This document shows, one piece after another, positions 38,853 to 41,382 of a stretch of 64,000 bases of DNA. Position 1 is the stretch's first letter. Every line of letters begins with the position of its first letter. The notes beneath the pieces were generated by a model. It had not been told where the DNA came from and made no database searches. It was given only the letters and a program-made list of their open reading frames with translations. Source of the stretch: Endozoicomonas sp. G2_2 (GTDB lineage: Bacteria; Pseudomonadota; Gammaproteobacteria; Nevskiales; Salinisphaeraceae); contig NZ_JAGHQU010000001.1 of assembly GCF_017744135.1 (NCBI RefSeq), positions 372,001 through 436,000 of the forward strand, in the 5' to 3' direction. A program made the translations under genes and the position numbers.

Positions 38853-39797
38853 ATGACACTCGATCCCCAGGCCGCGCGTGTACTGGAAGCGGCCGAACAG
38901 AGCGGTCTGCCGCCGTTGGAGACGCTGCCGCCCGCCGAGGCACGTCGCCAGTACGAGAAAGGCGCCGTGATCGTGGGCGGCCAGCCGCCGGCGGTTTTTT
39001 CCGTGCGCGATATCGAAGCGCCCGGGCCGCTCGGCGCGATCCCGCTGCGCGTCTACGTGCCTCGTGATCCGGGTGACGAGGCATTGCCCTTGCTGATCTA
39101 TATCCACGGTGGGGGCTATGTCATCGGCAGTCGTGACAGCCACGATGTGCCGTGTCGTTATCTGGCGCTCGGCGGCGACTGTATCGTGGTATCGGTCGAC
39201 TATCGCATGGCGCCCGAGCATCCCTACCCGCAGCCGGTCGACGACTGCTGGGCGGCGGTGAACTGGATAGCGGAAAACGCAGTCTCGCTCGGTGCGCGCG
39301 CCGACCGCATCGCGATTGGCGGCGACAGCGCTGGCGGCAATCTGGCCACCGTCATGTGCCTGAAAGCCCGAGACGCGGGCGGGCCTGCGTTCGTCTACCA
39401 GCTGCTCATCTATCCGGGCACCGACAAGAGCCGCAGCCATGCGTCGCATGCCGAATTGGCCGAAGGTTACCGGCTCACGCGTTCGTTGCTGGCCTGGTTC
39501 ATGGCGTATTACTTCAGCGGGGAGCCGGCCGATCCGGATGATCCATACGCCTCGCCGCTACATGCCAAGGATCTGTCCGGGCTGCCGCCTGCGCTGGTGG
39601 TTTCGGCCGGCTACGATCCGCTGCGTGACGAAGACATCGCCTATCACGAAAAGCTGCTGTCACACGGCACCGAATCCGAGCATCTGCATTATCCGGGCAT
39701 GATTCACGGCTTCATCAATATGCCGGGGGTGCTCGACGTGGCCCGCGAGTGCCTTGATGAATGCGGTCATCGTCTTCGGCGGGTGTTTGCTGAGTAG
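38853..39797 (+). CDS. Alpha/beta hydrolase, HSL/acetyl-esterase type
   Basis: 314 residues of the hormone-sensitive-lipase family: oxyanion motif YIHGGGYVIGS, nucleophile GGDSAGGNLA, catalytic Asp in AGYDPLRDED and His in PGMIHGFINM. An N-terminal cap region precedes the HGGG. It hydrolyses short-chain esters in the cytoplasm. It is the last plus-strand gene before the non-coding repeat element. Confidence 0.9.
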   Translation: MTLDPQAARVLEAAEQSGLPPLETLPPAEARRQYEKGAVIVGGQPPAVFSVRDIEAPGPLGAIPLRVYVPRDPGDEALPLLIYIHGGGYVIGSRDSHDVPCRYLALGGDCIVVSVDYRMAPEHPYPQPVDDCWAAVNWIAENAVSLGARADRIAIGGDSAGGNLATVMCLKARDAGGPAFVYQLLIYPGTDKSRSHASHAELAEGYRLTRSLLAWFMAYYFSGEPADPDDPYASPLHAKDLSGLPPALVVSAGYDPLRDEDIAYHEKLLSHGTESEHLHYPGMIHGFINMPGVLDVARECLDECGHRLRRVFAE

Positions 39798-39868
39798 ACT
39801 CGAGAGCTTGAAGTTTTGAATCAACGTTTGGGGTGAATTTTCGCTTGGGGTTTCGCGCTGCTGCGCGA

Positions 39869-39902
39869 CTTACTTTCTTTTGCTTGTCCAAAAGAAAGTA
39901 AG
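39869..39902. repeat. Left-end hairpin of the element
   Basis: Perfect 14-bp stem CTTACTTTCTTTTG / CAAAAGAAAGTAAG around loop CTTGTC. Confidence 0.85.
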
Positions 39903-40389
39903 CAAACAAAAAGACACCCTGTCTTGCGTCGATGCTGCGCATCGATGCCCTGCGCGGCTCCGTCCGCAAGCGGGCCAGCCGGAAACTCGCTGCGCTCAGA
40001 CATCCGGCTGTCTTAATCCGCTTGCGGCCTCCACTGCTCGGCGCTACGCCCAAGGGACCCAATACAGACAAGCTCGCTGTCGCTCGCTCAAGGTCGCGCT
40101 TCTTTATGTCGAATTATGCGTTCGCCTAATTCGACAAGAACGGAGCCGGAGGCTACGTGGCCACTAGCCAGGTTAAGTAACTCTCTCTGTAGGCCTGACG
40201 TTTGTATTCGGACCCGTTGCACGGCGACGCAGACACGGAGTGGCGACGGGTGTCCGGCGCACTGCGCCGGTGCGTACAGCATGTCTGAGGATCGCCAAAG
40301 CGATCCGAGTTCTGTACGCATCCCGTCGCCGCTGCGTGTCGGAGTGAACCGGCGCAGCCGGCGCTGTGCCCGGGTGTCCTTTTCCTTTG

Positions 40390-40423
40390 CTTACTTTCTT
40401 TTGGACAAGCAAAAGAAAGTGAG
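40390..40423. repeat. Right-end hairpin of the element
   Basis: The same 14-bp stem with one mismatch around loop GACAAG, which is the reverse complement of the left loop; this is therefore the inverted copy. Confidence 0.85.
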
Positions 40424-40560
40424 TCGCACTGCAGTGCGAAACCGTAGGTCCGACAAACTCGTGAGTGGAGCCCGCCTATAAAAGGGGACATTAACGACTA
40501 CGGACCGCCACCGTTCGGCTTCATCGCGTGAACTGTTTTACTGCCATTTCCTGGCGAGCG

Positions 40561-40592
40561 AAAAAAGCCCCGATTCGTCGCCGAACCGGGGC
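40561..40592 (-). terminator. Terminator of the class II aldolase gene
   Basis: On the minus strand GCCCCGGTTCG-type stem pairs with CGAATCGGGGC, followed by TTTTTT. Confidence 0.85.
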
Positions 40593-40623: not shown

Positions 40624-41382
40624 TCAGGTCGCGTAGTCGCTACCCATGCGCTCGAGCTTGCGGATGAGGGCCGGCCAGGCCAGCTTGTGGGCCGCGCCCA
40701 GGCTCTGGGCCTGATCGGCCGTGGTATCCAGTGCCTGCTGAGACGGCACATGACCGGCGCCCATGGCCAGGGTGCGCACCTGAATCTGACAGGCCTTCAT
40801 CAAGAAATACATGTAGATGAAGGCTTCGCCGACGTTCTTGCCCACGGTGAGCGTGCCGTGGTTGCGCAGCAGCATGATGTCGTGATCGCCGAGATCGGCG
40901 ACCAGGCGCTCGCGCTCGTCGAGGTTGAGCGCCACGCCCTCATATTCATGAAAAGTGATATGCGGAATACACAGCATCGCGGTCTGGCTCAACGGCAGCA
41001 GGCCGTCGGGGTGTGCGCTCACGGCAACGCCGTCGGCCGCATGCAGATGCAATACCGCGCCGGCTTCCTCGCGGGCCATGTGCACGGCACTGTGAATGGT
41101 AAAGCCGGCGGGATTGACGCGGTTGGTCGCGCCCGGGTCGACGATCTGGCCGTCCTCATCGACCTTGACCAGCGAAGAGGCGGTGATTTCGTCGAACAGC
41201 CAACCGTAGGGGTTGATCAGAAAATGGTGTTCCGGTCCGGGCACGCGCGCGGACAAATGGGTGAACACCAGGTCATCCCAGCCATAGAGAGAGACGAGGC
41301 GATAAGCTGCGGCTAGATCCTTGCGGACCTCCCACTCGGCTTCGGACATCGTGGCGGAACGATCGGTTGCGGCAGTCGCCAT
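40624..41382 (-). CDS. Class II aldolase/adducin family protein
   Basis: 252 residues. Conserved elements are HLSARVPGPEHHFLINPYG near the N-terminus, the zinc histidines of AVLHLHAADG (about 115-120) and NHGTLTVG, the third metal His region. The start has a strong AAGGAGG. Family members cleave or decarboxylate phospho-sugar acids, but many in this adducin-like branch have unknown substrates. It is a single-gene unit, divergent from the thiolase operon and closed by its own terminator. Confidence 0.87.
   Translation of the reverse strand: MATAATDRSATMSEAEWEVRKDLAAAYRLVSLYGWDDLVFTHLSARVPGPEHHFLINPYGWLFDEITASSLVKVDEDGQIVDPGATNRVNPAGFTIHSAVHMAREEAGAVLHLHAADGVAVSAHPDGLLPLSQTAMLCIPHITFHEYEGVALNLDERERLVADLGDHDIMLLRNHGTLTVGKNVGEAFIYMYFLMKACQIQVRTLAMGAGHVPSQQALDTTADQAQSLGAAHKLAWPALIRKLERMGSDYAT

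Follow-up and report, generated by a model that had tools for sequence, protein, structure and literature searches.

A dispersed non-coding repeat of inverted multi-hairpin units that probably fold as single-stranded DNA

Among the dispersed repeats described in bacteria, REPINs and BIMEs are the closest to the element reported here: both are extragenic and non-coding, comprise inverted pairs of hairpin units, form mosaic arrays and show compensatory changes (PMC3116915, PMC2817692). The present repeat differs from them in its four-stem unit of about 200-245 nt, where REPINs and BIMEs have a palindrome of 20-40 nt, and in a loop that is almost identical across phyla. Furthermore, RAYT transposases are linked to REPs and REPINs (PMC3116915, PMC2817692), while no RAYT was detected in several genomes rich in the present units. 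The R0, R2, R178 and R200 repeats of Pseudomonas fluorescens (PMC2718517) are likewise intergenic hairpin repeats with a bias towards tail-to-tail genes; with 89-320 bp and other structures they are set apart from the present repeat by description only. MITEs share shortness, lack of coding content, inverted ends, multiple copies and empty sites in relatives, whereas the present element shows, among the copies fetched, neither a visible target duplication nor a parent transposon, has a structured and covarying interior, and varies between its lineages in the phase of the inverted pair. Finally, loops of the GNA or GNNA type with two or more closing G-C pairs, e.g. in d(GCGAAGC), form extraordinarily stable and nuclease-resistant DNA mini-hairpins (PMC4686876). 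This motif is known as an isolated biophysical structure; here it appears as the bottom-strand apex GCGNAGC, occasionally GCGNNAGC, in unit A and in units elsewhere, and caps a conserved dispersed repeat.

The element lies between convergent genes in the window, i.e. the whole stretch of 64,000 nucleotides that was analysed. An earlier note on this DNA had described positions 39849-40443 as a non-coding element with inverted ends of about 71 bp, each comprising a self-pairing hairpin. The arms 39849-39913 and 40379-40443 are indeed 91% complementary without gaps, and extend over 71-72 nt at 90% complementarity if gaps are allowed. The 14-bp stem of each end was found at 39869-39902 and 40390-40423, with the loops CTTGTC and GACAAG, whose mutual reverse complementarity follows automatically since the ends are inverted copies. 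The folding energy of the segment lies at z = -16 compared to dinucleotide shuffles, and chance is therefore ruled out. The absence of coding content was confirmed as well, since almost no indel among copies is a multiple of three (90 of 91 break the frame in unit A; for unit B the count is 88 of 97). The limits of 39849-40443 enclose the core of the element, but conservation continues beyond both sides, by about 45 bp on the left and about 30 bp on the right according to the alignment of copies. The picture of a spacer with inverted ends was rejected: homology to the inverted right half (40200-40443) covers the left half (39849-40069) in full and is not limited to the 71-bp ends, and the two halves are structured units of about 220-245 nt in tail-to-tail arrangement. 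The order within a unit is hairpin H0, hairpin H1, consisting of a pyrimidine arm and a purine arm, a CAAAAG/CCC linker, hairpin H2 and the long stem P3. The features of the locus are as follows.

ending at 39797, plus strand: alpha/beta-hydrolase-like gene, named from a reading of its translation
39803-40471, no strand: whole element, approximate outer limits from conservation among 29 copies and the left end motif
39803-39848, plus strand: left outer flank, ending ..TTGAATCAACG..GTGAATTTTCGCTTGG
39849-40069, plus strand: unit A, about 220 nt, from the 28-copy alignment and homology to unit B
39853-39868, plus strand: H0 hairpin of unit A, resembling a terminator together with the adjacent T-rich arm
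39869-39902, plus strand: H1 hairpin of unit A (pyrimidine arm/purine arm)
39927-39947, plus strand: H2 hairpin of unit A, apex GCTGCGC
39962-40028, plus strand: long stem P3 of unit A, loop AACTCGCTGCGCTCAGACA at 39984-40002
40070-40199, no strand: inter-unit spacer, which differs from copy to copy; relatives have about 10-50 bp
40200-40443, minus strand: unit B, from the 28-copy alignment; about 245 nt, in the opposite orientation to unit A
40290-40305: P3 apex of unit B, GATCGCTTTGGCGATC (plus strand GATCGCCAAAGCGATC)
40390-40423, minus strand: H1 hairpin of unit B
40424-40439, minus strand: H0 hairpin of unit B
40444-40471, plus strand: right outer flank, AGGTCCGACAAACTCGTGAGTG..
40561-40592, no strand: pre-existing bidirectional terminator outside the element, also in relatives without the element
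40624-41382, minus strand: class II aldolase-like gene, named from a reading of its translation

The left end motif TTGAATCAAC (39816-39825) is almost confined to copies of the element, and the direct TTGAATCAAC-like repeats seen at both ends of some copies are part of the element itself. A test for dispersal of the outer flank on its own was negative. The P3 stem of unit A, which bears GCGCAGC, an apex of the GNA mini-hairpin type, on its bottom strand, was matched by the covariance model at 39954-40040 with 88.4 bits.

A search of the genome revealed 30 dispersed copies with 71-89% identity to the window copy. The other 13 species of the genus all carry copies as well (14 of 14 genomes), often as half elements in alternating arrays. 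At the window site three sister species are empty: in G003, G005 and G007 the orthologous genes have no element between them but a short spacer plus the bidirectional terminator that is also seen in the window, which places the insertion after the split from these species. A tree of the copies shows 28 of this genome's 30 as an expansion specific to the species; the copy at L044 is paired with a partial one from another species, and the copy at L065, a site common to five species, groups with those of the relatives. The empty site together with this lineage-specific amplification indicates that the element has moved. The movement is real but slow, since the very close species G011 and G012 have most sites in common. 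Hence the mobile, genome-wide spread proposed in the earlier note is supported, but its comparison to a MITE finds no support in the strict sense: neither a target duplication nor a transposase with matching ends was found among the copies fetched, and the ends are hairpins inside a larger structured unit. In the flanks of the 30 copies, whose exact ends are not sharp, no target duplication was visible, and no exact insertion junction was found among the copies compared.

Several copies showed alterations of their own. In G011, one copy (L184:66-1649) is interrupted by a gene for an IS110-family-like transposase (307 aa), the G012 orthologue (L183) being intact, and the copy at L039 ends in an IS3-like reading frame at the contig end. 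Next to another element, 155 bp are present in G011 (L179) and absent in G012 (L178); they comprise both outer flanks without units and are bordered by the GAGT-TTGAATC motifs of element ends. Within one unit of G267 the P3 stem-loop is tandemly duplicated as a 66-bp repeat (L148:1463-1615). In some copies P3 contains, always at the same place, one more small hairpin (CCTAGTCAGTTAACTAGG or similar) (A1 columns 178-190, A2 137-149), which suggests that blocks are exchanged between copies.

The copies prefer the 3' ends of genes. Gene calls from a home-made program place 18 of 28 copies between convergent genes and a single one between divergent genes, while convergent pairs make up 5 of the 55 in the window (p = 2.6e-7, Fisher test). 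The same tendency was observed in Noviherbaspirillum (9 of 17 copies between convergent genes and none between divergent ones), while the small deltaproteobacterial sets showed no clear convergent excess. This preference fits an insertion that is tolerated at gene ends. The earlier note had also considered a dual terminator. In favour of this, each end comprises a GC-rich hairpin (H0) followed by a T-rich arm, and convergent genes are the favoured sites; on the other hand, the site has kept its own bidirectional terminator beside the insert, and termination leaves the conserved interior unexplained. A terminator scan lists H0 with the T-rich H1 arm at the left end on the plus strand, whereas the mirrored site at the right end, where the same layout is seen by eye, is absent from the list. 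The T tracts are interrupted. Judged from this layout, H0 and the T-rich H1 arm form a candidate terminator that may add termination, possibly as a by-product of the element.

The stems of the units covary strongly and are almost free of G-T wobbles. Within the genome, 12 of 60 predicted pairs in unit A and 13 of 62 in unit B were changed on both sides and still paired; examples are the H1 variants TTTTATTTG/CAAATAAAA, CTTTCTTTTG/CAAAAGAAAG and CTTCTCTTTG/CAAAGAGAAG. Across genera, the P3 arms showed -49.4 kcal/mol in their native combination compared to -29.7 kcal/mol when swapped between genera, and a covariation score of 0.459 compared to 0.163 +/- 0.014 after shuffling and at most 0.216 after sliding. 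Since the stems fail to align across genera, no single consensus fold was obtainable from a cross-genus MAFFT alignment of whole units, and P3 was therefore modelled alone (model R1). The training units of R1 were mostly chosen by the exact loop, so that the conservation of AACTCGCTNCGCTCARACA, the almost invariant loop capping the P3 stem of unit A as well as that of units elsewhere, is partly due to ascertainment.

Bacteria from at least five phyla, as assigned, contain multiple copies of units built to this plan. With R1, units were found in 31 of 185 sampled gammaproteobacterial genomes, representing 29 genera, often as close inverted pairs; the other 154 gave no match. Beta-proteobacteria, Desulfobacterota, Bacteroidota, Bacillota and Nitrospirota, several of them represented by MAGs, contained 2-72 units per genome, the numbers of R1 matches in twelve named genomes being 22, 35, 6, 48, 11, 2, 14, 10, 56, 72, 9 and 10. 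Outside the genus, the exact 22-mer of P3 was found in named genomes, mostly MAGs, in a total of 48 stretches; they come from Desulfobacterales, Desulfatitalea, Herminiimonas, Noviherbaspirillum suwonense (an isolate), Methylophaga, Nitrospirota, Bacteroides, Parabacteroides, Lachnospiraceae and Negativicutes. In every case tested the 22-mer forms the loop of a stem with genus-specific sequence, and in most lineages the H1 hairpin and the CAAAAG linker recur upstream of it. Allowing up to two mismatches, 10 of 397 other genomes of the phylum gave a match, and none did with a reversed control pattern. Some of the matches of the mismatch search (GGCAACTCGCTGCGCTCGGACA, G457, also G154 and G362) fall in apparent coding sequence, so that G457 is probably not a true carrier of the unit. 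Most close relatives outside the genus are without close copies. Two queries, the window element and an f13-family unit, gave no match in 72,556 plasmid and 50,697 phage records, apart from a hairpin match in three large Pasteurella records, and the 22-mer was not found in viral contigs. In open-licence papers, several of which on repeats hold no searchable sequence, no description under any name was found; an earlier description of single lineages of the repeat is possible.

Three groups deviate from the arrangement in the window. In Pasteurella multocida (NZ_CP020346.1, 244465-244885; L299:700-1120) an intergenic locus beside dapF shows the same layout of H1 hairpin, CAAAGAAAA linker, CACCCC and an inverted second unit, with a different P3 loop that is unmatched by R1; the record is labelled as a plasmid, carries dapF and may be a chromosome fragment. 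In Noviherbaspirillum suwonense (L252-L271) the units have their heads inward, the core is about 99% identical among copies, and both outer tails pass into variable (GGCAAC)n hexamer repeats. In Desulfobacterales, the WY2 MAG and Desulfatitalea (L084, L092, L098, L104 and similar) the loop caps a single imperfect hairpin of about 180 nt, which has the same apex and no recognisable H1 and represents a second architecture.

With modest confidence we favour the explanation that the locus is a copy of a non-autonomous, non-coding dispersed repeat, whose units most likely fold as single-stranded DNA. RNA stems usually tolerate G-U pairs, and a strand acting as RNA should accumulate them in one reading. 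Among about 2460 cells of well-aligned stems in 28 copies, G.T was found in 6, one invariant G-T column being left out of this count, and A.C in 16. Folded as DNA, the bottom strand of unit A reaches -64.0 kcal/mol compared to -56.9 kcal/mol for the top strand. Nearly all R1 matches (n=43) showed the apex CTNCG and three showed CTNNCG, which correspond to GNA and GNNA on the bottom strand; these three come from outside the training set and are not built into the model. H2 often, but not universally, has a C-TNC-G apex, while unit B of the genus, unlike unit A, has a CAAA apex, and the mini-hairpin argument therefore draws mainly on unit A. Altogether, the predicted bottom-strand fold and the GCGNAGC apex are suggestive of a DNA form and fit it, although they are not proof, and the scarcity of wobbles could also stem from template-switch correction of palindromes without any function of single-stranded DNA.

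In the favoured explanation, the building block would be the unit of about 200-245 nt with its fixed set of hairpins, two inverted units making up the element. The functional form would be a folded single strand of DNA, probably the bottom strand of the unit with the GCGNAGC apex on P3. An enzyme recognising the folded unit would copy it to new sites in trans, and copies would survive where insertion harms least, downstream of genes, where they may also stop or insulate transcription. No gene for a mobilizing enzyme was found in the genomes examined.

A family of structured RNAs, i.e. a transcribed 3' UTR element or small RNA that regulates or stabilises the flanking transcripts and/or terminates them in both directions, would likewise account for a covarying multi-stem structure at gene 3' ends with terminator-like H0 and T-rich arms at both ends. 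We regard it as unlikely: Rfam gave no covariance-model match at either threshold, the gathering score included, a promoter-like site was not found, the few wobbles show no strand bias, the units occur in both orientations and a working terminator was already present at the site and has been kept.

A classical MITE, derived by deletion from a DDE transposon whose transposase would move it via the terminal inverted repeats of about 71 bp, is distinctly improbable. The element is non-coding, shorter than about 1 kb and multicopy, with inverted ends and empty sites in relatives, all as in MITEs. But conservation extends beyond the inverted ends, the interior is conserved as well as they are, a target duplication was not seen, and the units of Noviherbaspirillum are reversed in arrangement, with heads inward and the hexamer-repeat tails outside. 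Nor was a long copy with an open reading frame or interior transposase of its own found among those fetched: of the two longer ones, one carries an inserted IS110-like gene (L184) and the other ends in an IS3-like frame (L039), two different insertion sequences.

Selection of many copies as a chromosome-maintenance site for a nucleoid protein or single-strand initiation, in place of selfish spread, would agree with the near absence from plasmid and phage records, the GNA mini-hairpin apex and the retention of some sites over five species, but is very improbable, as copy number and sites vary greatly between sister species, close copies are missing in most close relatives outside the genus and 154 of the 185 gammaproteobacteria lack a match. 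A REPIN or BIME proper, spread by a RAYT (Y1 HUH) transposase, is extremely improbable and already largely refuted: the inverted palindromic pair, the extragenic mosaic arrays and the compensatory changes are as in REPINs (PMC3116915), but Y1_Tnp (PF01797) was undetected in Noviherbaspirillum suwonense DSM 26001 (72 unit matches) and in G342, G531, G630, G635, G637 and G639, it is missing in element-carrying relatives such as G033 and G036 and thus does not track the element, neither of the two Y1 genes of the window genome is flanked by an element, and in place of REP palindromes of 20-40 nt the inverted pair consists of multi-stem units about 8 times longer.

Beyond the favoured reading of the locus as a non-autonomous repeat folding as single-stranded DNA, we propose tentatively, and hold to be unlikely, that the units form a class of mobile DNA that has so far gone unrecognised and is present in at least five bacterial phyla; it would spread as a GNA-capped folded single strand via a conserved host enzyme or another trans-acting one, without a RAYT or DDE transposase. 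To our knowledge, large dispersed families of structured non-coding repeats without a known mover are rare, and the same anatomy with a nearly invariant loop across several phyla is unexpected. The repeat probably explains many spurious 'hypothetical proteins' annotated over its units. Furthermore, it offers a clean test of whether selection on a bacterial repeat can act on folds of single-stranded DNA as its unit, as opposed to RNA folds or the ends of transposons.
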